A DNA stretch of 64,000 nucleotides from Cloacibacterium caeni. GTDB lineage: Bacteria; Bacteroidota; Bacteroidia; Flavobacteriales; Weeksellaceae. Made by a program: the position numbers and the translations under genes. The stretch covers positions 620,001 through 684,000 of the forward strand of contig NZ_OU015319.1 in assembly GCF_907163125.1 (NCBI RefSeq), in the 5' to 3' direction. The stretch's first letter is position 1. Every line of letters starts with the position of its first letter. The notes beneath the pieces are model-generated. The model saw only the letters and a list, made by a program, of their open reading frames with translations, had not been told where the DNA came from and searched no databases. Shown here one piece after another: positions 17,923-52,000 of this stretch.

Positions 17923-17940
17923 TAACAAATAGATAAATAG

Positions 17941-18768: not shown

Positions 18769-18770
18769 AA

Positions 18771-20720: not shown

Positions 20721-20722
20721 AA

Positions 20723-23192: not shown

Positions 23193-23203
23193 TTATTAAT
23201 ACA

Positions 23204-31800: not shown

Positions 31801-33931
31801 AAGACCTCTGATTGTAGTTCCAAATGACAGCATTTTGAAACAATGGGTGGAAACCATTTTTGAAACCATTCCTAATGCAAAAGTAAATGTTCTTGGCAAT
31901 CTTGGGAAAGATTACGACTTATCAAAATTTGATAATAAGGACGGGGAAATTACCATAGTGACTTATGAAGGTTTTAATAACATTGGCTTTTCAGAAAGCA
32001 TTACCCAAAATCTGGCCTCAAAATTTTCCTACATTTCTGAAAACGAATTAAAAAGTGTAAACTCCATCAGTGAAAGAGATTTTCAAAAGGAACTCGAAAA
32101 AGTTAAGGAAACAGAGGGAAAGATGAAACGTGGGAAAATCTATGATTGGGAAGATTTTGGTTTTGATCATCTCACTTATGATGAAGTTCACAACGCCAAC
32201 CATATTGTTGGAAAAGTAAAGATCGAAGACCGCAGGTTTGCTTCAGATTTTAGAAGTCAGAACCAACAGACTTCAAAACTGGGTATCAATACTTGGATGG
32301 CTGCTCAATACATTCAAGACAGAAACGATGGCAGAAATGTTACGCTACTTTCTGCAACTCCTTTTACCAATAAGCCTTTAGAATATTATTCTATACTTTC
32401 TTTAATAGCCAATAAGCGTTTGGAAGAATCGGGATATTTCAATGTGAATACTTTCTTTGAGACTTTTATGGAGGCGGATAATGATATGGAAATTGATGCT
32501 AAAGGTGATGTGAAATTTAAAGCCAATGTCAGAAGATTCAAGAATAATTCTTTGTTTCAACAGCTTCTATCTGAATTTATTGATATTAAAGGGGAAGAAG
32601 ACAATCCAGAACTGAAACGCCCTAATAAAATTAATAAAGAATATAAAATTGAGCAGAATGATTTAACGAAGGAACAATACGATTTGCTTAATGAGAGCTT
32701 TAATGAAAATCAAAAAGGAGCGATTCTTACTCATATTCTTAACGCACGTCTGATTGCAATTTCTCCATATTTATCACCTTACTATGATGGCGAAAATCCG
32801 TCATTAAAAGAATTTATTGAAAATTCTCCAAAGTTGAAGCAAACAATGGATTTAATTCAACAAAATAAAAAAGATATTCCTGAATCTGGACAAATTATTT
32901 ATTCTGAATTAGCAGTAGCGGAATTTCCAAAACTCAAAGAATATCTCATTCAGGAAATTGGTTACAAACCCGAAGAAATTGGAATTATTACTGGAGCAAC
33001 AAATAAAAATCAAAGAATCTCTATTCAAAATGATTTTAATGCTGGAAAAATAAAGGTAGTGATTGGAAGTGAAGCCATCCAAGAAGGAATGAATCTTCAG
33101 GAAAATACAACGGATGTTTATATGCTTTCTTTGCCTTATAATTTCACTTCTTTACGACAAGTGGAGGGACGAGCGTGGAGACAAGGAAATAAAAACGAAA
33201 ATGTACGAATCAATTTTATGTTGACTAACGATAGTATTGATGTGTTTATGCTTCAAAAGTTACAATCTAAACAAGCAAGATATTTAGAAGCAATGAAAAA
33301 AGGTGCTGATGTTTTGGATGTTTCAGATATCAGTACTCAGGAATTGAAAACCGCCATTATCACCAATCCTGAAACTAGAGCGAATATTGAAATTGAACTG
33401 ATGAAGAAAAGAATTGAAAGTGAGAAAAATAAGCACCTTGCTGATATTGCTTTTGTTTTGAGGAAACATCAGGATTTTTTAAAGGTACAGGAAGAAGTCA
33501 ACAAAGCTCAGAATAATTATAATAGAATTCTTAGTTATTCTAAAGAGGAAGGAGATAATGCTGAATATTGGAAAAATCAACTTCCTTTTTATCAGAAATC
33601 AATTCATTTAGCTAAAGAAAAAGTACAAGAGGAAATGGAGCATTTATTGCAAAAAGGAGTTGATATTACTGAAATTGAAAGTAAAAAAGTAGTAACCGAA
33701 AATAAAATTGAAGAATTGGATGAAAAATTGGAGGATTTGCCTAATGTTCGAGAGGGTTTGGTTTGTAAATATCGGGAGGAGAAGGAAATGCAGTTGAAGG
33801 TTAATGAGGAGAGGGATTATTTAGGTGAGAGGAGCGTTGAAAATTCACTCTTATTTAGTGTTATGAAACAACAAGAAATTGAAAAAGAAATAAAAGAAAA
33901 TGAGCAAACAGTTTTTGGTAGGAAGAGATAA
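28802..33931 (+). CDS. Giant Toprim-like / N6-methylase / SNF2-type helicase fusion (DarB-like)
   Basis: 1709 residues, GTG start overlapping the lipoprotein gene. Domains: a Toprim-like N-terminal segment (about residues 60-125, CLEGDRTGNMQTLKIL); an acidic linker; an N6-adenine methylase domain with LEPSVGTGNFLYATKD and catalytic NPPY in VIGNPPYGEHRG (about residues 355-430); a long middle part; then a superfamily-2 helicase with VGFGKTLSGIL, a DEVH box (TYDEVHNAN), SATPF, and QVEGRAWRQGN as motif VI. This architecture is known in conjugative elements and in phage P1 DarB, which protects incoming DNA from restriction. No specificity subunit is nearby. Confidence 0.82.
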   Translation: MSDKETLSPFVEDISVEEGNKNELIVFKNHKDKESFLELLRLNNQNNNRTLVTLNAGENSKKFINRFQNYEGKIFLCLEGDRTGNMQTLKILTEFRNKNIKDIRALYNISENANQNLEEYLKNKLQNKDKNVTLVESKKAQNEKDRTQSEEISNVEHLGSESTGRNLGKFGENSQSEQNRNYTSGQRLGSNDAGNGLGDTIWKHLVGDRERERRFDDHPQQNDDEKNERAEHFLGGIVSRRTVSNKSERELNSNSTNYEELDILISKYKGQNLTNEQVAEVVSAACFVSNNHKVFLNENLKITDDLKEICNQYQSGGTAKEGRGILDEYYTDDKIVNAVRNLIKDQLQNKVEISVLEPSVGTGNFLYATKDLALKSIITAFEINETTAKIAKILHPEAEINLRSFETEFIDEKGNKKDEYLVYDLVIGNPPYGEHRGLYKGLGEEPKIAKYEDYFVKRSLDSLRVDGILAMVLPSGWLNRQRNLQNATLVEGFRLPNGAFAGTQIGTDIIILKKNNQKISTDISKYFETNPSRILGETREKTNRFGRLENYVHGSLEEALSKIQQFKNKKETARIGNLFEDLYLENSESEIDKKFNAKNEIKTGNESQTIEKEFDLAQEKVETVLSQLNNIKFKSPTIISEIRKYENLRENLTTKPTSFSEENLKELIEKSGRIISIHNTKNQNEYKIQTKPELKKGVLKYQFSKQDEIVNTSLQNSSDITQEQIEAFRDTAYDGTLNNHGKHFQFANYIDGKWIHDFYYAEGNIYAKLEQLEKDFSDKNTIGGTINQYEKQRELLLKVLPKPKSLDEIFISPNHEFVHQFDLGQTEKETYNYATKRTETVIVDYNLAEKFKDFVGTLSSEAFAGSSAWEVRSFVDNETVTGSDKERNALVRERRKAAANDLFYKFVREELSDDIRNRFVKEFNRNYNNIHVPDYSKFPLFSKIHQNFKGKQLRLTEVQKSGVGRCTTKGVSLLAHEVGFGKTLSGILSMHEAMERGNARRPLIVVPNDSILKQWVETIFETIPNAKVNVLGNLGKDYDLSKFDNKDGEITIVTYEGFNNIGFSESITQNLASKFSYISENELKSVNSISERDFQKELEKVKETEGKMKRGKIYDWEDFGFDHLTYDEVHNANHIVGKVKIEDRRFASDFRSQNQQTSKLGINTWMAAQYIQDRNDGRNVTLLSATPFTNKPLEYYSILSLIANKRLEESGYFNVNTFFETFMEADNDMEIDAKGDVKFKANVRRFKNNSLFQQLLSEFIDIKGEEDNPELKRPNKINKEYKIEQNDLTKEQYDLLNESFNENQKGAILTHILNARLIAISPYLSPYYDGENPSLKEFIENSPKLKQTMDLIQQNKKDIPESGQIIYSELAVAEFPKLKEYLIQEIGYKPEEIGIITGATNKNQRISIQNDFNAGKIKVVIGSEAIQEGMNLQENTTDVYMLSLPYNFTSLRQVEGRAWRQGNKNENVRINFMLTNDSIDVFMLQKLQSKQARYLEAMKKGADVLDVSDISTQELKTAIITNPETRANIEIELMKKRIESEKNKHLADIAFVLRKHQDFLKVQEEVNKAQNNYNRILSYSKEEGDNAEYWKNQLPFYQKSIHLAKEKVQEEMEHLLQKGVDITEIESKKVVTENKIEELDEKLEDLPNVREGLVCKYREEKEMQLKVNEERDYLGERSVENSLLFSVMKQQEIEKEIKENEQTVFGRKR

Positions 33932-33946
33932 TAACTGAAAACAGTC

Positions 33947-33954
33947 TATTTTTG
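33947..33954 (+). promoter_or_regulatory. Candidate -7 element for the Gabija operon
   Basis: TATTTTTG fits TAnnTTTG, 88 bases before the gajA ATG, in the 110-base gap after the methylase-helicase gene. No -33 TTG at the usual spacing is seen, so this is tentative. No terminator separates gajA from the upstream gene. Confidence 0.35.
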
Positions 33955-34041
33955 CTTACTTGTAACCCCTCTTCAGATAGATTTTTTTCTAAGACTTTTT
34001 TACCGTATTTTTATAGTTTAAATTTCTAATTAATTACTTAT

Positions 34042-35784
34042 ATGGGAATAAAATTACAATCTCTTAGAATAAAAGGTTTTAGAGGTTTTAGAAATATAGA
34101 AATTGATTTCGAGAATAGTACAGTATTGGTAGGCACTAACAATTCAGGCAAAACAACAATTTTAAAAGCACTACAATTAGCATTATCAAATACACACTTT
34201 ATTTCTAATGATGATTTTTTCTACTGTGATGATTATATTGATGATACTATAATTATTGATTTACTATTTGTGCCAATAGATGAAGACTGCGTAATTGCTA
34301 GTCAATTTGATGAAAATTGGGCTGATGTATTTAAGGCTGAGAGAATTGGGATTGATTCTGAAGGCAATCAAATAATGGCTTTCAGAACTGTAATTAATGA
34401 AAATAATAAAACTTTTAGAAAAAAGCAATATTACATTGACCAATGGGAGCCCTTTTTTGAAAATAGTTTAAATTGGTATGACCATGAATATAGCAATGAC
34501 TTAAGTTTTTATTTTGATGAAATTCCTTTTTTTTATCTTGAGGCTAATAGAGATATCTTAGAAGATATAAAATCCAAATCTTCCTATTTAGGGAGAATTT
34601 TATCATCTTTAGAATTTACCCCTGAAGCAAAGCAAACAATTGAAAGTTTAATTTCAGAGTTAAATGATGCTACAATAGCTAATTCCGATATTCTGTCTGA
34701 CTTACAAAATACATTAGAAGAATTAGATACCGCAATGGATAATCCAAATAACTCCGTACAATTAACCCCGTTTACTAAGAAAGTCCGCGATTTAAACAAG
34801 GGCATCAGAATAAATTATTCTGAATTTTCAATGGATTATCACGGTATGGGTACAAGAAGTTGGTCTTCTATGTTGGTTTTAAAATCTTTTCTAAATTTAA
34901 ATCAAAGATTATTTTTAGACAATGATAAACCCTATTTTCCAATAATAGCAATTGAAGAGCCTGAATCTCATTTACATCCTAATGCACAAAAAAAATTATA
35001 TTCTCAGATAAACAATATTGTGGGGCAAAAAATTGTTTCAACACATTCTAATTACATCGCTTCTAATGCTCAATTAAAAGAAATAAGATCAATTAGTAAG
35101 TTTAATGAGACTATTAAAATTGGAAAATTAATTGTCGCTGATTTTGATGATGAACAATTAAGACAAATTCAAAGACAGGTTGTAAATACACGAGGAGAAT
35201 TATATTTTTCTAGAGTTGTCGTCCTTTTCGAAGGAGAAACTGAAGAACAAGCCTTACCTATTTTAATTAGTAAATATTTTGACATTAATTATGTTGAATT
35301 AGGGGTTAATTTTGTAGGAGTTGGAGGCTATACAAAGTACCTCCCTTTCATTAGATTTTGTGAGTCATTTAATATTGAATACTTTATTTTTAGCGATAAT
35401 GAGACTGATGTAAATACTGATGTTTTGAGACAAATTTCAAATTCTAAAAAGAATGATCCAACTAAAGTCATATTTGTAAACGCAGGGAATGATTTTGAAA
35501 AAGAACTCTGCGACAACGGTTACTTAGATGAAGTAAAAAAAGCATATCATAAGATTGAATTAGAAAAATGTTTTAATAACCAACACAAAGCAGCAAAACA
35601 AGTAGAATTAAATAATATAGCAGACACTGATTACTACGGCATTATCACTGGTGTGAAAACTCAATTTGCTCCTATAATTGCAAATGAACTTTTAATTTCT
35701 GCAAAACCTCTTCCAACAAAAATAACAGAGTTATTTGATAAAATAAATGAAATATTAAATCCAACAACTACAAATGCAAATTAA
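34042..35784 (+). CDS. gajA: Gabija protein GajA (OLD-family ATPase/Toprim nuclease)
   Basis: 580 residues, the usual GajA length. An ABC-type ATPase half has Walker A GTNNSGKT at residues 31-38 and Walker B IIAIEEPESHLHP, followed by the STHS switch. The C-terminal Toprim nuclease has E397 (VLFEGETEEQ) and acidic residues D452/D456 (FSDNETD). Known Gabija GajA nicks DNA when nucleotide levels fall during phage infection. The 3' end overlaps gajB by 11 bases. The pair, order and lengths make the call strong. Confidence 0.92.
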   Translation: MGIKLQSLRIKGFRGFRNIEIDFENSTVLVGTNNSGKTTILKALQLALSNTHFISNDDFFYCDDYIDDTIIIDLLFVPIDEDCVIASQFDENWADVFKAERIGIDSEGNQIMAFRTVINENNKTFRKKQYYIDQWEPFFENSLNWYDHEYSNDLSFYFDEIPFFYLEANRDILEDIKSKSSYLGRILSSLEFTPEAKQTIESLISELNDATIANSDILSDLQNTLEELDTAMDNPNNSVQLTPFTKKVRDLNKGIRINYSEFSMDYHGMGTRSWSSMLVLKSFLNLNQRLFLDNDKPYFPIIAIEEPESHLHPNAQKKLYSQINNIVGQKIVSTHSNYIASNAQLKEIRSISKFNETIKIGKLIVADFDDEQLRQIQRQVVNTRGELYFSRVVVLFEGETEEQALPILISKYFDINYVELGVNFVGVGGYTKYLPFIRFCESFNIEYFIFSDNETDVNTDVLRQISNSKKNDPTKVIFVNAGNDFEKELCDNGYLDEVKKAYHKIELEKCFNNQHKAAKQVELNNIADTDYYGIITGVKTQFAPIIANELLISAKPLPTKITELFDKINEILNPTTTNAN

Positions 35785-37597
35785 TTTATCCATAAAACAG
35801 TCTGAAATAGTCAACTTAGGAGAAGGTGCATTTTTGATTGAAGCAAGTGCAGGAAGTGGGAAAACTAGAGTTCTAACGGAGCGTGTTAAAAAACTTTTAG
35901 AAGATAATTCTTCTAAAGTTTTGGCAATTACATTTACCAATAAAGCAAGTGAAGAACTAAAAGAAAGGATTTCTTTAGATAAAATTAAAAACAAAAATGT
36001 TTTCGTAGGTACATTTCACTCTTTCTGTCAGTCGATACTAGAATCTAGGTTTAAACTTTTAGGATTCCAAAAAATGCCTCACATTTTTGAGGATGAAAGT
36101 GATCGGAGTGAAATTGTTGAAGAGGTTATAAAATCAATCCCCTACTTTACGGATATTTTTAATGGAATGGATTCGAAGCAAAAATCTTCATATAAAACAA
36201 GAGTGCTACATTTCATTTCAGAAGTTAAAAGAGAACTTGCTGAACCAGAAGAATTGATAACAGAAGAAGGAGAAGAGCATTTTCTTATGCTTTATAATGA
36301 ATATCAGGATAATCTCAGATCTAATAATGCAATAGATTTTGATGACCTAACTTTGCTCATTTATCAATTATTTATGAATAATGAAGCCGTTCAAAATCTA
36401 TATTCTAAATCGTATAACTACATTTTTATAGATGAAGGACAGGATTTAAATAAAGCACAATATTATTTATTGAAATCACTATGTGGAGAAAACATTAAAA
36501 ATGTAATGATTGTAGGCGACCCCAACCAATCAATCTATGGATTTAATGGTGCTACGCCAGAATACATGAAAAATTTTTTCATTGAAGATTTTAAGGCTAC
36601 AAAAATTATTTTGGATGAAAATTATAGGTGTTCAAAAAAAATAATAACCGCATCAAATTTGTTGATGGACTTAAATATCGCTGCTGATAAATATGTAAAA
36701 GAAGGGAAATTTGAAATTTATAGAGCTCAAAGTGAACAAGACGAAGCTAAGTATATTGTTCAAAAAATAAATGAGCTTGTTGCATTGCAAACACACCCAG
36801 ATATTGAAGGAAATATAGAATATAGCAAAATCTCAATTTTAGGAAGAAATAGGTTTGTATTTAAGTACATTGAAGAACAATTGCAAGAAAATCAAATCCC
36901 TTTTTATTTTAAATCTGGAAATATCGGGGTTAAATTTGAAACTATTTTTATGAAACTCTTTGATAATTATTTCAGAATTGTTATTAATCCTTCGGATAAG
37001 ATACACGCTAGAAAGCTTAAAAGTCTACTTAAAGTAGAGAATTTTGAGGATGCTAATCAAATTCAAACATCAAGATATAGTTACTTTTCATTTATCAAAA
37101 CCACAGTAGATAATTTAACCGAAGACAATTTCAAAAAATCGGTAAAAACGTTTGAAAACTTTATTAAAGAAAGTAACTTGCTTTTAGACGAAGATAAAAT
37201 TCAAATTTCTAGTGAGCTTGAAGGATTAAATGATTTATGGGGAACTTATTCGTTCAATACTTTAAAACCCTCTCTGACAGGTTTTAAAAATGCTATTTCA
37301 CTAGGAACAGTTATGAAGAATCAAAAAGAAGAAGGGGTTTGTATCAGTACTGTTCATACAATGAAAGGTCAAGAATCTGATATTGTTTTTCTTATTGGCT
37401 TGGACGATGGAACTTTCCCATATTATTTAGCTATAGAAAAAGGAGAGGAAGAACTGAATCAAGAAAAAAATAATTTATATGTTGCCTTTACTCGGGCTAA
37501 ACGGTTTCTTTATTTGACTTACCCTGCTATTCGTAAAATGCCATGGGGAGACAATAAAGCTAGAGCCAAATCCCGTTTTTTAAAAAATTTTAATTAA
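35774..37597 (+). CDS. gajB: Gabija protein GajB (UvrD/Rep-type helicase)
   Basis: 607 residues with the superfamily-1 helicase motifs in order: Walker A EASAGSGKTRVL (about residues 24-35), FVGTFHSFC, DEGQDLN, GDPNQSIYGFNGA, a C-terminal VHTMKGQESD, and NLYVAFTRAKR. In Gabija it binds GajA and responds to DNA ends. It overlaps gajA by 11 bases, and the nuclease gene follows after 12 bases, which suggests a longer operon than Gabija alone. Confidence 0.92.
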   Translation: MQINLSIKQSEIVNLGEGAFLIEASAGSGKTRVLTERVKKLLEDNSSKVLAITFTNKASEELKERISLDKIKNKNVFVGTFHSFCQSILESRFKLLGFQKMPHIFEDESDRSEIVEEVIKSIPYFTDIFNGMDSKQKSSYKTRVLHFISEVKRELAEPEELITEEGEEHFLMLYNEYQDNLRSNNAIDFDDLTLLIYQLFMNNEAVQNLYSKSYNYIFIDEGQDLNKAQYYLLKSLCGENIKNVMIVGDPNQSIYGFNGATPEYMKNFFIEDFKATKIILDENYRCSKKIITASNLLMDLNIAADKYVKEGKFEIYRAQSEQDEAKYIVQKINELVALQTHPDIEGNIEYSKISILGRNRFVFKYIEEQLQENQIPFYFKSGNIGVKFETIFMKLFDNYFRIVINPSDKIHARKLKSLLKVENFEDANQIQTSRYSYFSFIKTTVDNLTEDNFKKSVKTFENFIKESNLLLDEDKIQISSELEGLNDLWGTYSFNTLKPSLTGFKNAISLGTVMKNQKEEGVCISTVHTMKGQESDIVFLIGLDDGTFPYYLAIEKGEEELNQEKNNLYVAFTRAKRFLYLTYPAIRKMPWGDNKARAKSRFLKNFN

Positions 37598-37609
37598 TCA
37601 CTTTTGTCA

Positions 37610-38716
37610 ATGCAAATATCTAAATCACTGCCAAAACCACAGAACTGGCAAGACTTTGAAACGTTATGTAAAAAATTGTGGGGAGAAATATGGAGCTGTC
37701 CTGAAATTAAAAAAAATGGAAGACAAGGACAGGCTCAAAATGGTGTAGATGTCTGTGGAATGCCTAAAGGAGAATCGGGATATTATGGAATTCAATGCAA
37801 AGGGAAAGATGATTATACTGGGAAAAATTTCACAATAAAGGAAATAGATGGAGAAATTGAAAAAGCAAAGAATTTTATTCCAGCTCTTAAAAAATTATAT
37901 TTTGCAACCACTGCTGAAAAAGACTCTAAAATAGAAGAATATGTAAGAAAAATCAATTTAAAAAACATTAAAGACGGTTTTTTTGAAGTACATCTTTATT
38001 GTTGGGGAGATATTGTTGATCTGATTTTTGAAAATCAAGACACTTACAACTATTATGTCAACAGTCTCAATTTCAAAGATAATTATTCTGCCGAAGTCAA
38101 ATTCATCAATAACAGTGATGTTTTAGAGCTTTCTCCAAAGTTTAGAAAAGACACAATAATCAAAGTAGGAAAAACAATTGAACGATATAATCCTAGAAGT
38201 AATGTTTTAGATCTTTTAGGAGCTTCTTTTATTTCAGGTTCTTCAAGTGAAAAAATAAATTTAAGTCTAAATAAAATACAACTAAAAATAAAAAACACAG
38301 GAAAAAAAGACATTACTAATTTTAAAATTATTATAGAATTTGATGGAGATATAGTTGATATTTTAGAAGAAAATATAGACAATGTGAGAATTAATATGAA
38401 AAAAATTATTTCTCAATCAAATCTTAAGATAAAAAAGGAAGAAAAAAGAATTGAGATTATACCTTCAAAAAAAATTCTTGTGGGAGATGAAGAATATTTT
38501 TTTGAAAAATTTTATATTAAAACACCACCAAATAAAACTGATTTAAATTTGAATTGGAGATTATTGTCAAGTAATTTTAAGGCTGAGGGTGTTCTTTTCA
38601 TAAACGTCGATCCTGAAGTAATTATTAAAGAACTAAAATCAGAAACTCAATATTATCATGAAATTGGAATTACAATACAAAAAGAAATTGAGGATTATTG
38701 GGAATACACATCATAA
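37610..38716 (+). CDS. Mrr-like restriction-endonuclease-fold protein with C-terminal beta domain
   Basis: 368 residues from ATG 37610 (MQISKSLPKPQNWQDFETLC), preferred over a TTG two codons earlier. The N-terminal ~150 residues have a PD-(D/E)xK pattern: FETLCKKLWG, then GVDVCG with Asp, then YYGIQCKGKDDY with the Q-x-K pair. The remaining ~200 residues have alternating hydrophobic beta segments (INLSLNKIQLKIKNTGKKDI) like an Ig-type sandwich. It lies 12 bases after gajB and 13 before the ATPase, so it may be an extra nuclease of either system. Its target is unknown. Confidence 0.65.
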   Translation: MQISKSLPKPQNWQDFETLCKKLWGEIWSCPEIKKNGRQGQAQNGVDVCGMPKGESGYYGIQCKGKDDYTGKNFTIKEIDGEIEKAKNFIPALKKLYFATTAEKDSKIEEYVRKINLKNIKDGFFEVHLYCWGDIVDLIFENQDTYNYYVNSLNFKDNYSAEVKFINNSDVLELSPKFRKDTIIKVGKTIERYNPRSNVLDLLGASFISGSSSEKINLSLNKIQLKIKNTGKKDITNFKIIIEFDGDIVDILEENIDNVRINMKKIISQSNLKIKKEEKRIEIIPSKKILVGDEEYFFEKFYIKTPPNKTDLNLNWRLLSSNFKAEGVLFINVDPEVIIKELKSETQYYHEIGITIQKEIEDYWEYTS

Positions 38717-38729
38717 AAGAATATGAAAA

Positions 38730-40808
38730 ATGAGTTTTAAATTATTAGCGATAAGGCCATTAGATGGCTGCAATAAAAAATTTCTTAAAAATTTAATTCC
38801 TAATCAAATTTATAAATTTTATAATGAATATGAGTTTTACATAGGAGAAAATAAAGTTGAGAATGCTATCAATGGTGATGTTGTTAAAATTAAATATGAT
38901 CCTATTAGTTCTCTTCCTGAAAACCTTTATGACATAGGAAAAACAAAAATAAATATATCTGCTATTGTTGGGAAAAATGGGAGTGGAAAAAGTAGCCTTA
39001 TAGAATTGTTCATAGCTTGTATGAATCAATTATCTTTCAAATTAAAAAATGATGAAAAATTATTTTCCGAGGCAGATTTAATAAGCGTAACAAAAGAGGG
39101 GAAATACAAAATAAAGTGTGATTTGTTTTATGAATTAAAAAACGGCGTTTTTTTTACGTTAAGAATCGATGATGAAAACTTCACATTTAAAAATTTCAAC
39201 AATAATTTAGAAATTTTTAGTCTTGAAAAATTTTTTTATACCGAAATAGTCAATTATTCAATTTATGCATTTAATTCAAATACAATAGGTTCATGGATTG
39301 ATAGCTTATTCCATAAAAATGATGCTTATCAAATACCTATAGTTATTAATCCTAAAAGAGAAGGAAAAGACAATCCTCATTGGGCGGGAATAATAGATGT
39401 TAATAACGAACAGTATCTCCTAAACCAACGATTATTGAGTAATCTTTTAAAACCCATTAAAGATGATAAAACTTTTCGGAAGATTGGAGATTACATGACT
39501 GCGGTTAGTATAGAGTTAAACAAAAAAGAAATTCGAGATTTTTTTATTTATTCAAATGATGAAAATCAGATAGGTATAAAATATACCGAATTTAAAGATA
39601 AACAGGAATTATATAATCAATTTAAAGATAGTGATTCATTTGATTTTTCAGTAAATATTGATGCTTATAATCAGGAAGCACCTCTTTTATCTTGTCATAA
39701 TGTTTTTGAAATTTTAAAAACCATAAAATCTGAATTTCAATTAAACAATTTACCAGATGAGGATTTACAAATGCAACTAGATTACTATATCATATACAAA
39801 GTAATAAGCATTTGCGATAAATATATTGAATATCAAGACTTTATTACTGATTCGTATAAAATTTTCGAAGATAGGGAGTATAAGAGATATAAAATTAACA
39901 TAACCGATTTTATAAAACATATTAAAAAATATAAAAGTCATATCACATACAAGTTATATCAAACAATCAACTATATTAAATACTATGATGAGTTCTGGAA
40001 AGATATAAACACGGATGAAAAATTGGATTTAGATCGTTTATCCATAGAGCTTAATTCGTTACTAAAAGATACAGAAGACTTTATTGAAATATTGCCTCCA
40101 CCCATATTTGATACCGAAATATTTTTAGAAGATGAAAAAAACAGTGAGTTAATAAAGTTAAATGATTTAAGTTCTGGTGAACAACAGTTAATACATTCTA
40201 TTAGTTCTATAACGTACCATTTAAATAATATAAATTCAGTAAATGGGACAAAGATTATCAAATATGAATATGTAAACTTAATTTTTGATGAAATTGAATT
40301 ATATTTTCATCCTGAATTTCAAAGAAAATTAGTTAATTATCTTTTAAGGCAAATCAAAAACATTAATTTAAGTTTAAAAGGAATCAACATTCTCTTCATT
40401 ACTCATTCTCCATTTATTTTATCAGATATCCCAAAACAAAACGTATTGTTTTTAAATGTCGATGAAAAAACAAAACAATCAACCCCACAAGAGTATGAAG
40501 GAGATAATACGTTTGCTGAAAACATTTATGATTTATTAAAGCATTCTTTTTTTCTAAATGATTTTATTGGAGATTTTGCAAAAAATAAATTTAAGTCTTT
40601 AGGTGATTTTTTGACGTCCAATAAAAAGGAAAATAAAGACTGGAACGAAGAAAGCATACTGAATTTCATTAATATAATCGGTGATCCATTAATTAGAGAA
40701 TCATTTAGAAGTTTATACAAAGAAAAATTTGGAATTAATGAAGAAAGCACCAAAATAAAAGAATTAGAAAAAGAAATTGAAAGATTGAATAAAAAATATG
40801 GTGTATGA
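38730..40808 (+). CDS. Septu-like AAA/ABC-type ATPase (PtuA-like)
   Basis: 692 residues. Walker A is GKNGSGKS at residues 81-88. The ABC-type signature LSSGEQQL, Walker B VNLIFDEIELYFHP and switch FITHSPFIL lie in the C-terminal third, with a long insertion between the halves. Its stop overlaps the start of an HNH nuclease gene (ATGA). An ATPase of this type directly followed by an HNH gene is the Septu (PtuA-PtuB) arrangement, in which the ATPase controls the nuclease. The C-terminus is a short coiled coil (ELEKEIERLNKKYG). Septu membership is inferred from architecture. Confidence 0.72.
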   Translation: MSFKLLAIRPLDGCNKKFLKNLIPNQIYKFYNEYEFYIGENKVENAINGDVVKIKYDPISSLPENLYDIGKTKINISAIVGKNGSGKSSLIELFIACMNQLSFKLKNDEKLFSEADLISVTKEGKYKIKCDLFYELKNGVFFTLRIDDENFTFKNFNNNLEIFSLEKFFYTEIVNYSIYAFNSNTIGSWIDSLFHKNDAYQIPIVINPKREGKDNPHWAGIIDVNNEQYLLNQRLLSNLLKPIKDDKTFRKIGDYMTAVSIELNKKEIRDFFIYSNDENQIGIKYTEFKDKQELYNQFKDSDSFDFSVNIDAYNQEAPLLSCHNVFEILKTIKSEFQLNNLPDEDLQMQLDYYIIYKVISICDKYIEYQDFITDSYKIFEDREYKRYKINITDFIKHIKKYKSHITYKLYQTINYIKYYDEFWKDINTDEKLDLDRLSIELNSLLKDTEDFIEILPPPIFDTEIFLEDEKNSELIKLNDLSSGEQQLIHSISSITYHLNNINSVNGTKIIKYEYVNLIFDEIELYFHPEFQRKLVNYLLRQIKNINLSLKGINILFITHSPFILSDIPKQNVLFLNVDEKTKQSTPQEYEGDNTFAENIYDLLKHSFFLNDFIGDFAKNKFKSLGDFLTSNKKENKDWNEESILNFINIIGDPLIRESFRSLYKEKFGINEESTKIKELEKEIERLNKKYGV

Positions 40809-41782
40809 TACAGCTAATTATTAATAATGAAATTGAAAAAATAGCAGAAGATTATAAAAAAGAATTTTTAAATAAATGCGAAGCAGATATTAGAAAAAAT
40901 CTTAATAGTTTAATAGTTAAATTAGATATTACAAATGCAGAATATGCCATTAAGAAAGATTATATAGAAGCCATCTTAAGCAAATTGGAAGCCATAATTA
41001 TTTTAAAACCAAACGAAATGAAAAGTGAATTTTTAAATTTTAATCTTCCAAGCAATGATACAAGTTTTTATAAAAGTATTGTTGACGCATTGCTATATAA
41101 GAAAGTTCGAAAAGAATATTTTATTAAATCATTAAAAAATTTAGAAATAAATTGTTGTGCATATTGTCATACACAAGGTACATATGTCGTTAACGAATAT
41201 TACAAAAGAAATCATAAACCACACAAAAAAGGAGAATTAAAGAAACCTAAAGCCTTTTTCGAGTTAGATCATTACTATCCAAAAAGTAAATATCCATTTC
41301 TATGCGTTTCCTTTTATAATTTAATTCCAATATGCTCATCTTGTAATAAAGCAAAAAAGGATAAAACTATTGATTTTGATTTTTATATAGAATCTAAATC
41401 TTTAATACAGAATTTTAAATTCACCCTTTCAAAAGGATGTGTTGCAAAATATATTGCAACAAAAAATAAGAATGATATTATTGTGGAAATTTCTCATCCA
41501 AACAAAAAAATTCTAAAAAATTTTGATGAAAGATTTTCATTAAATTTAAAATACAATGAGTACAAAGACATTGTTGAAGAACTAATTTATAAAGAAATAA
41601 AATTCAACCAGATATACTTAGATTCTATATCAAATATTTTAAATAACACTTCGTTGAACAAAACTATTGTCAAAAGAATTATATATGGAAATTATTCAGA
41701 AAAGGACGAATCTTTAAAAAGACCTTTGGCAAAATTTTATCAGGAGATTTCTGAAGATATCAAATCGTTAAAACTGAAGTAA
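40805..41782 (+). CDS. HNH endonuclease (PtuB-like partner)
   Basis: 325 residues. The central HNH domain shows CAYC, then FELDHYYPKSKYPFLC with the catalytic Asp-His, NLIPICSSC and NKAK. The two CxxC pairs bind structural zinc. LDHYYPKS...NLIPxCxxCN is the pattern of PtuB and related retron-associated HNH nucleases. It is translationally coupled to the ATPase by a 4-base overlap. It is the last gene of the run that begins at gajA; an IS begins 32 bases after its stop. Confidence 0.78.
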   Translation: MIQLIINNEIEKIAEDYKKEFLNKCEADIRKNLNSLIVKLDITNAEYAIKKDYIEAILSKLEAIIILKPNEMKSEFLNFNLPSNDTSFYKSIVDALLYKKVRKEYFIKSLKNLEINCCAYCHTQGTYVVNEYYKRNHKPHKKGELKKPKAFFELDHYYPKSKYPFLCVSFYNLIPICSSCNKAKKDKTIDFDFYIESKSLIQNFKFTLSKGCVAKYIATKNKNDIIVEISHPNKKILKNFDERFSLNLKYNEYKDIVEELIYKEIKFNQIYLDSISNILNNTSLNKTIVKRIIYGNYSEKDESLKRPLAKFYQEISEDIKSLKLK

Positions 41783-41813
41783 AAGAGGATTATTAAAAAA
41801 GTAAAGATTAGTT

Positions 41814-43279
<1,466 letters not shown>

Positions 43280-43359
43280 AGTTATGATGTAATTACCTGA
43301 AATTTTATATTTTGTTGGTTCGCTAAGTTGTGATTCTATAAATTTGAAGCAAATTATTT

Positions 43360-44825
<1,466 letters not shown>

Positions 44826-44829
44826 ATTT

Positions 44830-45422
44830 ATGCTGCAATTTTGGTTTTGAGATTTTAAATACTTTAAGAAGATATGATTGAATTGAGAGAAATATTCCTC
44901 CATAAAAAAGTAATAAGTAGTATTTTTAAAACGTTCTCCTTATGCTCATCCAAATTCATTTTGTTATTATAATAATTCTTTATTGAAAATTGATTCTAAT
45001 GATTGATATAAAACGATTATAGATGACTAAGAACCATTTTTTTACCATTTTTACGACAAAGAAAAAGTTTAATGAAACAGGTTTAATGAAACTTCTTGTT
45101 ATCCTTTTATTAATCATTGTTCCCAATGATTTTCCCAACTATTTTTCAGTATTATGCCTTATATGATAAAATTTATTAATCAATATTTAACACAACAAAA
45201 AACATTATTATGCTTTATGCTTGTTATTTAAGTATAAAAGGAAACCATCTATTTTTATTTTACTTTTTAATTTGTTGGACTTATGAATTAAAAAAATCAA
45301 AAAATATTTTACAGAAATTTTATTTTAATTTTGTCTAACGTTTCAAGGTTAAATACTTGGAGTCTGTTTTTTACTGCCCAGTTTTATGTCCGTCAATTGT
45401 TTTGTGGTTTGTTGTTATAATA
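44830..45422. other. 593-base AT-rich gap right of the IS pair
   Basis: No plausible gene on either strand. It includes one member (45162-45285) of a direct repeat whose other copy lies at 52807-52928. A less AT-rich tail (about 45330-45420) lies just beyond the 3' end of the subtilase gene; I see no strong terminator hairpin there. The junction between the two defence blocks falls in this region. Confidence 0.55.
45162..45285 (+). repeat. Island-flanking imperfect direct repeat, left copy
   Basis: It begins TATGATAAAAT, contains CACAACAAAAAACATT and AAGGAAAC.ATCTATTTTT, and ends CTTTTTAATTTGTTGGACTTATG-like. The same order of blocks with small gaps occurs at 52807-52928. The last ~22 bases differ at one position. 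Similarity continues weakly for about 60 bases (GAAATTTTATTTTAATTTTGTC against GAAATTTACTTTAACTTTGTC). The pair brackets the IetAS/STAND block. Confidence 0.65.
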
Positions 45423-47786
45423 TTAATTGTTTAATTGAATTCTAACGTTTTCTTTAAGTTTAACATTTTGATGTATAAAGTTGAAATTATTTAATAATTG
45501 GGTTACCTCATTATAGATGTTCCCTTCTTTTTTAGTATCTCTAATTGTTATAACCAAGCAAAATTCTTGACTTGGTGTTATTCTTTGTAATTCTGATTTA
45601 CTTTCTATTGCTTGTCTAAATAATCCATCAATCTTTAAATACCAATTTTTTGGTATTTTTAAAAATTTTTCTTTATTAGTTGCAGTAAATTCATCAAGAT
45701 TTACTGACCATTTTTTTACAGGTTGAAATTTATCGCCGTAAGCAACCAAAACCCTTTCCTTGTTATATGGGTTTTCCGTATCTTTCATTGCGATTTTACT
45801 GTACAAACTATGAGTAAGTAAATTTTTGTTTCCATCGGGGCCTATTGGGTTTATTACAGTTGCTTTTGATGTATCTCTATCTTTTTTTTCATCATAGGTT
45901 CCAAACATTACATCTATGTTTGATTGGCAATATTCAGACCCTTGATTAGAATCTAAAATTGGTGAGGTCACTAATGTGAGAGTTATTTCACCATAAAAAT
46001 ATCCCTCATCATCAATCATTGATTGTGGAAAAGGAAAGTCTAAAATCTCTATGAAATTTCCTTTTTCAATAGTATCTTGAAGAATCAATGTGATTTCATT
46101 TGGTTGATTAAACAAGATATCTTGAATAGTTGAAGGAACTCCGAAGCCTACATGTTTTAATTTCTCATCAATACTTATCTTCATTTCTTCTGGATAATTG
46201 CAAGAATGTAGTGTTAATGCTTTAAGTAGTAATGGATTAAATCCTTCGTTCAGCGCATTGTCAACTCCTGCAACAATTGAGGTAATTCTTGGTGTTGAAA
46301 AACTTGTTCCAACAACAGATTTTGTTTTTCCATCAGAAGAAAAAGTTTTAATTCCATTTAAAATTAGACGGTTTTTGTCATCAAATCCTGCATTACCACC
46401 AATATGGGCAATGTCGGGTTTAATAAGATGTGATGGACCAGGTCCAATTCTTGAAAATGGCGATGAATGATTTTTTTCAGACAAGTCTGATTCTATTTTA
46501 TTCTTTGAAATTGATCCTACAACAAGACTTCTTATTGAATCAGCAGATTGTGAGATTCTTCTTCTAGGTGCATTTATTTTAAAATTATCACAGTTTCCCG
46601 CGGATTTGCAGATAAGAACATTATTTTCATCTTGTATTTCATCTAATGCCTTCCCAAAATCTGAAAACTCGATCAAATCTGCTTCTTTATTGGTTCCAAG
46701 AGATAAATTCCAAATTTTTATTTGATTATTTTCGCTTATTGCCTCTCTGATATTTTCTATAAGTTCATCTTCAGGTATTTTAAGCATTTTTTCATCTGGA
46801 TAAACTATGGCTTCAAAAAGTTTTGCTCCACCAAAACCAGTATATTTTTCGTTTTCAAGTTCATCGCCATAAACTATTACTCCAGAAACGGCTGTGCCGT
46901 GCCTTTTATCAATATCATCTGTATGGAATTTAGAAAAATTTTCTTGCAATAGCCATGGTTTTAAATGAGGAATATTAGCAATACCGGTATCTAAAACTCC
47001 AATTACAGGATAATTTTTTCCCTCAATAGGAATTTTTACATTCACTATTTCGGCTTCTTGTAATTCATCTAATGTAACTTCATAAAATGGCATCTCGCTT
47101 ATCGTTTGTATTCCGTCAAATTCCTTCAGTTCATTAAACTCGTCTAGTGTTATGTTTTGAACTTTAAATATATTTAAGTCTGCAGAATACACAGTACGAC
47201 TAAAATCAATATGTTTTTCTTTACAAAATTTTTCAAAAGAACGAATCAATATTGTGTTAAGTTCTGAATCTCCAAAATTGAAAAGTTTAACTTTTAAAAC
47301 ATCGCTCTCAATGTCTTCTGTACTAACATCAATTTCAGGCTCAAATTCTTCCATTTCCTCTATTGCTCCAATACCTAGTTTTACACCTTTACCTACTAAA
47401 TGTTTTTTGGCGGAAGAGATTTTCGTGCTTATTTTATGAAGATCTTCATCGTTTTCAATTTTAACCAAAACTTCATCATTATTATTTAATCCAAAAAGAT
47501 TTATTTTTTGAGTGTTGAAAATATTTGCAATTTCTTTTCTATAAGTTTTTGCTAATGCATCATTATTTAAAGTAAGTTTAACAACGCTCGGAATATAATT
47601 CCCATTTTGTTGCTTATTTCTTAAACTTTTAGATACGTCCTTAAGAGTTTCTACGAAACTTTCTACTTTTTCAGGTATTAGCGCTTCATTGAACCATTTT
47701 GGTGGTTCTGAATTTCCGCCGCCTTCAGTATTTCTTTCATCATTAGCTCTCTTTTGAAAAAATTTTATTGGTAAATTCCTTTCCAT
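45423..47786 (-). CDS. ietS: Subtilisin-like serine protease of an IetAS-type defence pair
   Basis: 787 residues, no signal peptide. The S8 triad is complete: D266 (IGVLDTGIA), H296 (RHGTAVSGV), S495 (VGTSFSTPR), with the oxyanion Asn in KSAGN (N398). A ~250-residue N-terminal region and a ~250-residue C-terminal region are family-specific. Being cytoplasmic, it is not a degradative secreted protease. The AAA ATPase gene lies 2 bases upstream on the same strand. An ATPase plus subtilase is the IetAS arrangement, linked to plasmid stability and phage defence. Its target is unknown. Confidence 0.8.
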   Translation of the reverse strand: MERNLPIKFFQKRANDERNTEGGGNSEPPKWFNEALIPEKVESFVETLKDVSKSLRNKQQNGNYIPSVVKLTLNNDALAKTYRKEIANIFNTQKINLFGLNNNDEVLVKIENDEDLHKISTKISSAKKHLVGKGVKLGIGAIEEMEEFEPEIDVSTEDIESDVLKVKLFNFGDSELNTILIRSFEKFCKEKHIDFSRTVYSADLNIFKVQNITLDEFNELKEFDGIQTISEMPFYEVTLDELQEAEIVNVKIPIEGKNYPVIGVLDTGIANIPHLKPWLLQENFSKFHTDDIDKRHGTAVSGVIVYGDELENEKYTGFGGAKLFEAIVYPDEKMLKIPEDELIENIREAISENNQIKIWNLSLGTNKEADLIEFSDFGKALDEIQDENNVLICKSAGNCDNFKINAPRRRISQSADSIRSLVVGSISKNKIESDLSEKNHSSPFSRIGPGPSHLIKPDIAHIGGNAGFDDKNRLILNGIKTFSSDGKTKSVVGTSFSTPRITSIVAGVDNALNEGFNPLLLKALTLHSCNYPEEMKISIDEKLKHVGFGVPSTIQDILFNQPNEITLILQDTIEKGNFIEILDFPFPQSMIDDEGYFYGEITLTLVTSPILDSNQGSEYCQSNIDVMFGTYDEKKDRDTSKATVINPIGPDGNKNLLTHSLYSKIAMKDTENPYNKERVLVAYGDKFQPVKKWSVNLDEFTATNKEKFLKIPKNWYLKIDGLFRQAIESKSELQRITPSQEFCLVITIRDTKKEGNIYNEVTQLLNNFNFIHQNVKLKENVRIQLNN

Positions 47787-47788
47787 GA

Positions 47789-48877
47789 TTATTTTGTTTT
47801 TAAATTATTTCTTACTTGTCTTATAGAGATGTTTAGTATTTGAGTTATCTTTTCTTGTGAAACACCATTTTCATTTAGAAAAGTAATAATATCTTCAATT
47901 GTATATTCTTTGTTTTTTGATTCAAAAATTTCAAGTAATATATCTTCATAAGACAAATACTCTTTGTTTTTTATAATTTTTTGTGCTAAAACATTATTGA
48001 ATAAGGTTTTGATATATGATGGAGTCTTTCCTTCTAAATTTTGAATTAATTTGTTCGTTTTCTTTTCATCATTTAAGAAATCGTTATTGGAATCTTTACT
48101 AAAAGTCTCAATTAATTTGTAAACTTCGTTTTGATTTGGTAAACCAACTTCTATTAATGTATTAAATCTTCTCCAAATTGCCTTATCTAATAATTCGGGG
48201 TGGTTTGTTGCGCCAATAAGGAGATTTGATTTTGAAAATGTATCAATATTTTGTAATAAACTATTAATAACTCTTTTTAATTCTCCTAATTCATATTGGT
48301 CATCTCTTGCTTTAGCAATAGCATCAAATTCGTCCAAGAAAAGAATACAAGGTTTTTCATCTGCATATTCAAAAATTTTTCGGATATTTTTTGATGTATT
48401 CCCTAATAATGATGAAACAATTGCATCAAATCTTGCAGTAATTAAAGGTAGTCCTGTTTTGTTAGAGATGTATTTCGCAATAGTAGTTTTTCCACTTCCG
48501 GGAACTCCATATAATAATAAAGAATTGGAAATTTCAAGTCCATTTTTTAACAATTCTCCTTGATGTTGATATAGGTTAATATAATCTTCAACTTTGTTGT
48601 AAATATTTGGTGATAAAATAATATCATCATTATTTTCAGAAGGCATTTGTATATCCACTATATTCATTCTACTTTCCTGATCTACTGGTGTTGATATTAA
48701 TGAATCCATTGTAACCATTGAACTTGGTTTGTTTTCAAGAGTCTTAATAATCATTTTAGCCAACTTAGGCTGTCCTTCTTTTTCAAATTTTTCAGCAAGA
48801 ATACGAGAGTAATTATTAATTTTCTTAAGGTCTTTATTCAAGCCTCCTTCAATTATTCTTAAAATTTCGGTGTACAT
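47789..48877 (-). CDS. ietA: AAA+ ATPase of an IetAS-type defence pair, with C-terminal helix-turn-helix
   Basis: 362 residues from the ATG at 48877 (MYTEILRIIEGGLNK), chosen because a TAnnTTTG promoter lies 20 bases upstream and because the longer frame adds a non-conserved hydrophobic stretch. Walker A is GVPGSGKT at about residues 124-131, Walker B CILFLDEFDAIA at about 178-189, followed by an Arg-rich sensor region (KAIWRRFNTLIEVGLP). The last ~28 residues (GVSQEKITQILNISIRQVRNNL) look like a helix-turn-helix. It may unfold or present substrates to the subtilase, or hold it inactive. The HTH suggests autoregulation. Confidence 0.8.
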   Translation of the reverse strand: MYTEILRIIEGGLNKDLKKINNYSRILAEKFEKEGQPKLAKMIIKTLENKPSSMVTMDSLISTPVDQESRMNIVDIQMPSENNDDIILSPNIYNKVEDYINLYQHQGELLKNGLEISNSLLLYGVPGSGKTTIAKYISNKTGLPLITARFDAIVSSLLGNTSKNIRKIFEYADEKPCILFLDEFDAIAKARDDQYELGELKRVINSLLQNIDTFSKSNLLIGATNHPELLDKAIWRRFNTLIEVGLPNQNEVYKLIETFSKDSNNDFLNDEKKTNKLIQNLEGKTPSYIKTLFNNVLAQKIIKNKEYLSYEDILLEIFESKNKEYTIEDIITFLNENGVSQEKITQILNISIRQVRNNLKTK

Positions 48878-48896
48878 TTTTATAGTTTTAACGTTA

Positions 48897-48904
48897 CAAA
48901 TGTA
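48897..48904 (-). promoter_or_regulatory. -7 element of the ietAS promoter (leftward)
   Basis: Read leftward, TACATTTG fits TAnnTTTG and lies 20 bases before the ietA ATG. A TTG (complement of CAA at 48926-48928) sits about 21 bases upstream as the -33 element. Confidence 0.6.
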
Positions 48905-48907
48905 TAA

Positions 48908-48961
48908 AAAATGTAATATAAAAATCAAAAAATGTTATTTATTTATAATAAAATGTAATAT
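48908..48961. promoter_or_regulatory. Repeated AAAATGTAATAT boxes in the divergent ietAS/STAND promoter region
   Basis: AAAATGTAATAT occurs at 48908-48919 and again at 48950-48961, 42 bases apart (four helical turns), with a related AAAATGTTAT between. They lie between the two divergent promoters, where a regulator, perhaps the HTH-bearing ATPase, could control both directions. Confidence 0.45.
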
Positions 48962-48977
48962 TTTTATTTTTAATTGA

Positions 48978-48985
48978 TATATTTG
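48978..48985 (+). promoter_or_regulatory. -7 element of the STAND gene promoter (rightward)
   Basis: TATATTTG fits TAnnTTTG and lies 18 bases before ATG 49004. It supports that start over the TTG at 48974, which would precede the promoter. No clear -33 TTG is visible, so activation may be needed. Confidence 0.55.
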
Positions 48986-49003
48986 TCTCAAAATTTGTTA
49001 GTT

Positions 49004-52000
49004 ATGTCAGGAAGATTAATTTTAATTGAACAGAAACTTATAGGTATTGATAGTTCAACATTTCAAACACTATGTGATTTGTATTTAAATTTGAGAGAGG
49101 AAGGTATTTCCAGTTTTAATAGAATTGGAAGCCAATTTGGAAAACAAAAAACGATAAAAGGAACTCCAGATACTTTTTTTAGAACAGATTCAGGAAAATT
49201 GCGGTATGTAGAATTTACAACTAAATCTGATGATGTAGTAAAAAAACTTAAAGAGGACATTGATAAATGTCTAGATTCAAAATTAACTAAAATTTCAAAA
49301 AAAGACATTAGTAAAATTGTGTTGTTTTTTAATGCTAGACTAACAACAGATCAAGAGAAAGATATTTTTCAATATGCAAAAGACAAACAGGTATTTATTG
49401 AATTAATTGGATTGGACAAACTTGCGTTAGATATTTATTCAGAATACCCAATATTATCAAAAGACATTCTCGGAATTCCACTTGAAACAGGGCAAATATT
49501 ACCAATATCAAATTTTATTGAAGAATATAACCATAAAGGTGGCAACTTATCCACTCCTTTGGATAATATTTTTTTAAATAGAAAGGTAGAATTGCAAAAT
49601 GCGAAACAAATTCTACAGGAAAAAGATTTATTCATAATTTCCGGTTCTGCAGGTGTTGGAAAAACTAAATTGGCTATAGAAATAATTAAAGAGTTCATTT
49701 TAGAAAATAAAGACTACACTCCTTTTGTTATTTCAAAAAAAGATGTTGATATATGGGAGGATTTGAGAGTGCAATTACAACATGATAAAAATTACATACT
49801 TCTCATCGACGATGCGAATAGACAAATATCAAATCTTGATCAAATTCTTGGCATATTTAAAGAAAATAGAAAAGGTAAATTAAAGTTAATAATTTCTGTA
49901 AGAAACTATGCTTATGATGATTTATTTAGACATTGTATTGAATTTGATACAGGCTCAATTTTTCTAGAAAAATTTACTGATGATGAAATAAAAGAACTAA
50001 TAAGTAGCGATTCTTTCAAGATAAAACATCCACATTATCACAATAAAATTATATCCTTATCGGATGGTAATGCACGATTGGCAATTATGGCTTCTAAGTT
50101 AGCGTTGGAAAAACAATTTGAATTTTTATCAGGTGGTATTTATAATTTATATGACGTATATTTTCAAACATTCATTAAAGATTTTGATCTCTTTAAAAAC
50201 ACAATTTTGCTAAAAAGCATAGGGATTATTTCTTTTTTCTTTACAATAGAAAGAGACAATAAAGAATTTGTTGAAAAATTATTAATGGACTTTGAATTAA
50301 ATTACTCAGATTTTCAAGAAGCAATTGAAGAACTTCATAACAGAGAATTAGTTGAGGTGAAAGATTCTTTTGTAAGAATTTCAGAACAAGTAATGTCAAC
50401 TTATTTCTTTTACAAAGTTTTTATAAAGGATAAGATTTTGTCATTTAATAAATTATTGTTTGAATATTTTGATAGATATGATAATAGGTTTAAAGAAACT
50501 GTAATTCATTCAAATAATACATTTGGGTATTTTGAGGTGTTGGATAAAATTAAACCAGACATTGATAGGTATTTTGATATTAACTTGAGTAATGAAGAAA
50601 GAATATCAAAATTTATTAAATTGTTTTGGTTCTACAAGAGGGAAGAAACATTATCCTACATTTACAATAAAATAAAAGCCGAAGAGGAAGATCCAAATCC
50701 TATATATGTTTCAACTTATGAAAATAATCATTTCAGTTTTGAGGAGGATAAAATATTGCCATTTCTAACCCCATTTTTTAGAAGCTACACCCAAGATAGT
50801 TTTGTTCCAGCACTAGAATTGGCTTTTGAACATGGTAGAAAAATTCCAATTGCATTTACTGAATTGATTCGCAGGCTAAAAGAAAATTTAAGTTTTGATG
50901 ACGATGATGAGTATAGCAATAATTTTGAAAAGCAAAACAAATTCATTGACCTACTAATTAGCAAAACCAAAGAAGGTTTACCGCATTATACCGAGGCTTT
51001 TTTAGGTCTTGCTTCAAATTTTCTACCGCATTATAATAGAGTTTTTAAATCTGGAAGGAAAGGACATTCTTTTATTCATTATAATTATCCTATACCCCTA
51101 AACAACAAAGTTAAAAGTATCAGAAGAAAAATTTGGAAAAAATTTTTTAAACTCTATTTATATTATCCAGATAGAATACTTAATGTTATCACGGACTATA
51201 AACCTCATTATGGAGACTTAAATTTAAAAATCTTAAATTTTGATTTGGAGTTTATTTTACCATTCATTGAGAATAAACTAAATAGAAGTGACTTCAGAAA
51301 TATTTACTTCGTTAACGAATTTGTTAATTGGTTAGATAAAGAACAATTGGAAGATAAAGGCTATAGAAATTTAAAAAATCTTTTTCAAAGTCAAGAATTT
51401 GATGATTTTAGAATATTTGATTGGAATTATTATCGTGGTAAAGCAGATTATGACTATGAAAATATTTCAGATTTTGAAAGTTTAAAATCAAAAGATATTA
51501 GCAAACATTTTGATTTTTCTAAAAGTAGAGATTTCTCAAAATTGACAAACGTCATTAATAATAGTCTACAAGTATTAAAGCAGGATTATCAAATTCAGGC
51601 ACCTATAAATGTTACTTTAGAATCAAATTTTAAGAAAGATAAAGAAGTCGGGTTTAAATTATTTATTCATTTTTTAAATGATTTCTCAAAAAGATTCCAT
51701 TTTATTCCATATCGTGCTATGTCATTAATTATAAATGATAAAGACTATTACAATAAATTATGGGATTACTTAAAAAATTGGAACAGTGAAAATGCCTTGC
51801 TATACAAGATTCCATTTTTTGATATACTTCCAAATCAATTTATAGATGAAAAAATTACTACAGAACTATTTGAATTAATAAAAAATATTGACTCCAATTC
51901 TTTTATTAGTTTTGATATGTTTTCAAAATTTGAAAAGATAAAGCCAAATATTAGTTTAGAAGTTTTAGAAATTATTCTGAAAAAAAAGAAAAATGGAATT

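Follow-up and report, generated by a model that had tools for sequence, protein, structure and literature searches.

A run of five genes in Cloacibacterium caeni that probably stacks three separable defence modules, including a promiscuous Mrr-type nuclease

A stretch of 64,000 nucleotides from Cloacibacterium caeni (NCBI RefSeq assembly GCF_907163125.1, contig NZ_OU015319.1, positions 620,001 to 684,000), which we refer to as the window, contains a run of five genes on the forward strand. The run encodes a Gabija pair, a nuclease here called X, and an ATPase/HNH nuclease pair assigned to the PADLOC candidate system PDC-M62, here called the M62 pair. We consider it probable that three separable defence modules (gajAB, X and the M62 pair) are stacked in this run and that X is a promiscuous and autonomous nuclease, and we favour this reading over one in which X is a plug-in to other systems. 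The Gabija pair and the M62/Septu pair are of known kinds; X is, from its sequence, a candidate for an unnamed single-gene defence system, of a known nuclease type and with an unlisted architecture and an unusual promiscuity. The five genes are as follows:

34042-35784, +: gajA, OLD-type ABC ATPase with a TOPRIM nuclease domain, 580 amino acids (PADLOC, Pfam, motifs)
35774-37597, +: gajB, UvrD-like helicase, 607 amino acids (PADLOC, Pfam)
37610-38716, + (from the ATG): X, Mrr-type PD-QxK nuclease with a predicted C-terminal Ig-like beta-sandwich, 370 amino acids when read from a TTG at 37604 (Pfam match below cut-off, invariant site, model)
38730-40808, +: PtuA-like ABC ATPase, PADLOC candidate PDC-M62A, 692 amino acids (PDLC04737, profile)
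40805-41782, +: PtuB-like HNH endonuclease, PADLOC candidate PDC-M62B, 325 amino acids (PDLC04743, profile)

An earlier note on this DNA, made from the sequence alone, had described five same-strand genes at 34042-41782 with overlaps or gaps of at most 13 bases, and had named them gajA, gajB, a Mrr-like nuclease with a beta-sandwich, a PtuA-like ATPase and a PtuB-like HNH nuclease. This description was borne out: the junctions measured -11, +6, +13 and -4 bases, the PADLOC models for the four outer genes were GajA, GajB, PDC-M62A and PDC-M62B, and the predicted model of the middle protein has a Mrr-type fold followed by a C-terminal beta-sandwich. The second junction is +12 when X is read from its ATG at 37610 instead of from the in-frame TTG at 37604; the ATG is the likelier start because the starts of the relatives align with it, and the gap between gajB and X is therefore probably 12 bases.

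The GajA protein matched the PADLOC model PDLC00067 at 5e-201 and the Pfam families AAA_15 (PF13175) and OLD-like_TOPRIM (PF20469), and a motif search recovered its Walker A, Walker B and TOPRIM motifs. The GajB protein matched PDLC00132 at 3e-219 and the Pfam UvrD-helicase family at 1.6e-66, with its motifs visible in the translation. The pair thus consists of an ABC ATPase with a TOPRIM domain followed directly, with an 11-bp overlap, by a UvrD-like helicase, and it resembles Gabija in both genes, in how they are ordered and overlap, in their motifs and in the PADLOC models that match best; it differs in that two more modules trail gajAB at 6 to 13 bp.

The ATPase downstream of X was matched by PDC-M62A at 1e-53 versus 4.7e-17 for the best PtuA model, and the HNH protein by PDC-M62B (PDLC04743) at 1e-36 versus 1.9e-8 for the best PtuB model. 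The motifs sought in both proteins were present. A profile of 17 ATPases reached solved PtuA at 1.2e-15, and a profile of 17 HNH proteins reached the TIGR02646-family chain 9n69_F at 1e-5. The likeness to Septu hence lies in a PtuA-type ABC ATPase gene that overlaps a PtuB-type HNH nuclease gene by 4 bp and in the finding of solved PtuA and a PtuB-kind chain by the profiles, whereas the differences are that the best models are PDC-M62 rather than PtuA and PtuB, and that both proteins are longer than most listed PtuA and PtuB models and solved chains. In Bacillus cereus genomes, one study (PMC11811056) counts 203 PDC-M62 calls as duplicates of Septu calls made by another tool.

HNH matches at an E value of 0.001 were found in 77 of the 296 genomes of the family to which the window belongs. 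We examined 16 further M62 loci, namely the 14 strongest HNH matches besides the window, G235 and one place of G209; the sample leaves out G083 and G090, which ranked between these, and many weaker matches. The ATPase gene adjoined the HNH gene in all 16 loci, and neither X nor Gabija was found in any of them by tblastn at 1e-3 with the proteins of the window over 17 to 18 kb each. Because all 16 related loci lacked detectable X and Gabija, the M62 pair is, as judged from these sequences, a free-standing Septu-like system.

The Gabija genes of the window were likewise followed beyond it. GajA proteins of the window type (E value 1e-30) were present in 5 of the 296 family genomes, and X was located behind gajB in 3 of the 5, at a spacing of 5 to 13 bp, and was thus not constant within this subfamily. 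In G140, which is the closest relative (GajA 82%), and in G266, no X was detected in the roughly 7 kb downstream. A more distant relative, G740, came from a GajB search of 395 genomes of the class, in which 2 matched (the window among them), and it contained no X within 1.5 kb after gajB. In L087, X was located 7 bp behind a distant Gabija of a second subfamily.

In the 296 family genomes, X was matched in 24 at an E value of 0.001, and the match was strong (1.5e-38 or better) in 12, window included. X was located directly behind gajB in 3 of these 12 (G000, G070 and G196), behind a Tmn-like gene in G161, in a broken form behind DrmA-DrmB in G287, and near an M62-type pair in G209. The remaining genomes (G123, G210, G170, G272, G281 and G240) contained X without Gabija, a Tmn-like gene, DrmA-DrmB or an M62-type pair directly beside it; a methylase gene was located 190 bp downstream of X in G123, and type I restriction genes upstream of it in G240. 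In a second, partly overlapping sample of 395 genomes from the order, the X alignment used as query found 10. Across bacterial and archaeal genomes, 266 relatives of X were confirmed; the best 80 were used and, together with the window, L038, L043, L046, L047 and L048, gave 86 mapped loci. A scan of viral contigs with X gave no match.

A same-strand open reading frame (ORF) was located within 30 bp of X in 33 of the 86 loci, upstream in 20 and downstream in 14 (the window having one on both sides), and 53 loci contained none. The ORFs were called mechanically from the first possible start, so the gaps lean short and some of the small neighbours may be spurious; furthermore, a contig end left no ORF on one side of X in L055, L102, L104 and L111, and five further neighbours were cut. 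Partners were identified by PADLOC, or by BLAST to the Gabija proteins of the window, in 26 of the 33 loci, the other 7 being L048, L076, L083, L084, L094, L130 and L132; some were scanned under another identifier of the same contig (L040 for L061, L039 for L054, L042 for L100 and L045 for L115). Defence families made up 15 of the 26 partners, and 11 had no PADLOC match:

Gabija, two subfamilies: window, L053, L038 and the distant L087
DISARM DrmA-DrmB: L061 (X broken)
Tmn-like gene (1.5e-18): L054
SIR2/ThsA-like gene: L068
AbiEii: L103 (X broken)
Type I restriction-modification: L105, L118
Type III restriction-modification: L091, L106, L126
Type IIG restriction-modification: L114
PDC-S02, a candidate system only: L046 (X broken)
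No PADLOC match: L055, L067, L077, L079, L085, L092, L093, L097, L100, L115, L129

Among the last group, the neighbour in L085 scored just over the Pfam putAbiC cut-off (22.9 versus 22 bits), and the neighbour in L077 was a homocysteine methyltransferase-like housekeeping gene.

A Gabija pair was located directly upstream of X in at least 4 of the 86 loci (the window, L053, L038 and L087) and near X, not directly upstream, in L089, and a Septu-type pair was located in the same run as X in at least 3 (the window, L115 and L091). Gabija and M62 genes were sought here by BLAST with the proteins of the window at 1e-4, and divergent systems can therefore be missed, as was the pair in L091, which was found by PADLOC and motifs. 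The earlier note had proposed a composite operon in which the middle gene might link the two systems. The composite nature held, whereas a link through the middle gene was not supported: judged by the refuting condition given in that note, a middle gene found mostly alone elsewhere, X was mostly tied to neither neighbour and more often without any close same-strand ORF. X also adjoins a number of unrelated defence systems and is therefore unlikely to be a component specific to Gabija or to the M62 pair; nothing in the analysis showed that it needs either of them.

It was also noted that L084 contained two tandem X genes 15 bp apart (8834-11110), and that the genes in L091 (10001-17515) were, in order, X, a type III methylase gene, a PtuA-type ATPase gene, a gene for a 214-amino-acid protein with HNH-like motifs, and a gene for a protein of 895 amino acids. 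In L091, a type III restriction operon appears to enclose the Septu-like pair.

The borders of X were visible in the comparison of L038 and L054, which belong to different genus groups (g1 and g26). The 2 loci were 97% to 100% identical from about base ten of X over approximately 4.5 kb, after which the identity was 65% to 81%, and the sequences upstream of the shared block were unrelated, consisting of gajAB in L038 and a gene for a Tmn-like protein of 862 amino acids in L054. The DNA similarity between the window and the DISARM locus L061 began 14 bases ahead of the ATG of X and ended at the stop codon of this gene. Because L038 and L054 share the block from X onwards and differ upstream of it, and because the similarity to L061 is confined to approximately X, we infer that X is exchanged as a cassette whose conserved first codons are the exchange point, the L038 and L054 comparison being the one clear case. 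A Hypoth_ymh gene was located downstream of X in L038, and a gene for a protein of 262 amino acids occupied the same position in L054. The X gene in L055 (8386-9375), from a short contig in an Ignavibacteriaceae metagenome-assembled genome, was 99.4% identical in DNA sequence to those in L038 and L054, with unrelated upstream genes; either X was recently transferred between phyla or the contig is chimeric.

A tree was inferred by a quick method from 81 X proteins (without L046, L061, L099, L103 and L129), in which 29 of the 78 inner branches were weak. The close-neighbour state, shown by 29 of the 81 proteins, required at least 20 changes on this tree, and X would therefore have joined or left operons frequently, provided that the tree is approximately correct.

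The X protein matched no PADLOC and no NCBIfam family, nor did it pass the cut-off of any Pfam family. Its match to the Pfam family Mrr_cat_2 (PF13156) had an E value of 8.4e-4 and a score of 19.7 bits, and because this is under the curated cut-off of 22 bits, we label the protein Mrr-type and not a member of PF13156. In an alignment of 75 X proteins (without L055, L061, L077, L099, L103 and L129), D49, Q64 and K66 were invariant, in a D-x14-QxK spacing, and E19 was present in 74 of the 75, with one gap. An AlphaFold model from the 75 sequences, with a mean predicted local distance difference test (pLDDT) of 91, placed a nuclease domain at about residues 7 to 156 and an Ig-like beta-sandwich at about residues 160 to 338 (in the numbering of the 370-amino-acid form). 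The best structural match of residues 7 to 156 was to residues 2 to 174 of an Avs4 chain, which we take to be its nuclease domain (Z score 11.5, root-mean-square deviation 2.9, 135 residues), and the match to the MspJI catalytic domain had a Z score of 9.7 over 138 residues. X is thus of Mrr type, with a PD-QxK site in a predicted restriction-endonuclease fold.

The nuclease domain of X resembles the Mrr-family PD-QxK nucleases of type IV restriction, EcoKMrr and MspJI, in its D-x14-QxK site and in its match to the MspJI catalytic domain. According to a review (PMC12707154), PD-QxK is the site of both of these enzymes, and they have an N-terminal SRA-like or winged-helix domain, whereas X has a predicted C-terminal beta-sandwich instead. 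The difference from Avs4 is one of size and composition, X having 370 amino acids versus 1534 residues and neither a STAND NTPase nor a repeat domain. A Foldseek search with the whole model returned a top 50 that consisted mostly of beta-sandwich proteins with low template modelling scores (TM-scores), and the beta-sandwich itself matched YcnI with a Z score of 8.9 and integrins at about 8; we give this domain no functional name because the fold is too common.

A relationship of X to haemagglutinin was considered and rejected. A PDB sequence search yielded 66 sequences at an E value of 1 or lower, and the 60 that were listed were all influenza haemagglutinin, the best at 9e-4. These matches were gone when the 75-row profile was used, and the sole match below 0.01 was to a stretch of a chitinase, at 0.0015.

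An X-like nuclease domain was also found at the start of a protein of 1040 amino acids encoded on an Escherichia coli IncHI1B plasmid, with 34% identity over 205 residues. In this plasmid locus (L203, 3634-12573), the gene for the 1040-amino-acid protein follows genes for a TIGR02391-family protein and a Mrr_cat restriction endonuclease, and a Hachiman HamA gene is located further on.

Several observations weigh against a stack of separable modules with an autonomous X. We know of no activity for X, and the domain arrangement in its model has a predicted template modelling (pTM) score of only 0.62. X was located directly behind two distant Gabija subfamilies, that of the window and that of L087, and in L115 and L091 it shared a run with a Septu-type pair. 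When 74 neighbours (of at least 130 amino acids) of solo X genes were compared with PADLOC at 1e-5, 105 families were matched, each by at most 2 of the 74, in an output that does not give the number of matched neighbours. Furthermore, the five closest unbroken X proteins (the window, L053, L054, L055 and L038) were all encoded within 30 bp of a same-strand upstream ORF, and this may reflect an adaptation of the subclade to being co-expressed or to partners, the upstream ORFs being not of one kind.

If X were a plug-in effector, it would need an upstream sensor or motor, such as Gabija, DISARM, or type I or type III restriction, to expose or mark the DNA for cutting. Such a dependence would agree with the share of defence genes among the checked close partners, with the helicases or translocases in several of these systems (GajB, DrmA, HsdR and Res), with the breakpoint at the start of X in L038 and L054, and with the plasmid protein of 1040 amino acids, by which the nuclease domain of X can serve as a module. 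It accords poorly with the 53 loci without a same-strand ORF within 30 bp of X, with partners that are structurally unrelated to each other and with the 11 of 26 that had no PADLOC match, and we regard it as unlikely. A broader version, which we hold to be somewhat more doubtful still, would have X as a shared nuclease that docks onto many unrelated defence operons, chiefly those that encode DNA helicases or translocases, so that the DNA they handle is destroyed; the upstream systems would then be swapped at the conserved start of the X coding sequence, its first codons. It is very unlikely that X is a dedicated third gene (gajC) of a Gabija subtype: its position 5 to 13 bp behind gajB in 3 of the 5 subfamily loci and 7 bp behind the distant Gabija in L087 would be expected of such a gene, but it went undetected with the closest Gabija in G140, with that in G266 and in the 1.5 kb after gajB of G740, and nearly the same X is located behind a Tmn-like gene. 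The earlier note had also offered a three-gene Septu variant (X-ATPase-HNH) with X as the third subunit, and this we consider slightly less probable still. X is located 13 bp upstream of the ATPase gene in the window, L115 contains an M62-type pair followed by a gene for a protein of 246 amino acids and then, after 173 bp, X, and L091 has X upstream of its PtuA-type ATPase and HNH-like genes; but the order in L115 is reversed and a gene intervenes, as does the methylase gene in L091, and at the other 83 of the 86 X loci no such pair was found by searches that can miss divergent pairs. Because the 16 further M62 pairs all lacked a detectable X, the variant is unsupported, and the third gene of the three-gene Septu described with PADLOC is, according to that work (PMC8565338), a reverse transcriptase, unlike X.

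As a stack of separable modules, the run would act as follows. In Gabija systems, DNA is cleaved by GajA, with GajB as helicase or sensor, and the gajAB genes in the window would direct such cleavage against phage DNA. By homology to Septu, the ATPase of the M62 pair would hold and control the HNH nuclease. The PD-QxK domain of X would cut DNA, and its predicted beta-sandwich may provide recognition or oligomeric control. By this reading the gene moves as a cassette, and it was located repeatedly at the edges of other defence operons. Searches of open-licence articles, mostly by title and opening of the abstract, turned up no description of X, nor any that paired it with Gabija or DISARM, an absence that carries little weight. 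Which genes lie together is the usual basis for defining a defence system, and X is a case in which tight packing may mislead; its active site is testable, and it lets one ask whether defence genes that are packaged together cooperate or merely travel together.

The spacing of the five genes suggests that they are probably co-transcribed. Sites resembling sigma-70 promoters occurred at chance level (50 found versus 51.1 expected), and a Bacteroidota-type promoter pattern had no match on the forward strand of 33701-42000. The sole terminator-like site on that strand was located inside gajA, with none between the genes; given promoters at chance level and no intergenic terminator-like site, a single transcript is plausible. 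A search of 33000-46000 against Rfam at gathering scores gave no match. The G+C content was 0.29-0.30 in gajAB and dropped to 0.23-0.25 over the ATPase and HNH genes, the shift being located inside X, which fits separate origins of the modules but could also be caused by the composition of the domains.

The five-gene run is probably cargo of a conjugative element, because conjugation genes are located upstream of it, and insertion sequence (IS)-like copies, an IetS/IetA pair and a STAND NTPase gene downstream. The conjugation genes (12670-25551, +) encode TraG, TrbL, TraM and a coupling protein; the TraG P-loop protein unexpectedly contains an internal DnaJ domain. Also upstream of the run, a gene encodes a protein of 1709 amino acids with SNF2-helicase and weak methylase matches. 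Directly downstream, two IS-like gene copies (41823-44715, -) were 99.1% identical, the first split into two ORFs and the second a single ORF of 448 amino acids, and we read their sequences as putative transposase genes. They are followed on the reverse strand (45423-48928) by IetS, a subtilase matched at 1097 bits, and, next to it, an AAA ATPase, probably IetA, in which case the pair is a further defence system near the run. A STAND NTPase (nSTAND3) of 1258 amino acids with no good PADLOC match is encoded at 48974-52750 (+); its first 180 residues look like a PD-(D/E)xK nuclease, and the protein may be an Avs-like sensor that carries a nuclease head. No similarity between X and this protein was detected by BLAST, the best E value being 2. 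A tRNA scan of the window found none. Near the start of the window, genes for a radical SAM protein and a C39-peptidase ABC exporter (1802-6168, +) likely form a peptide-bacteriocin cluster.

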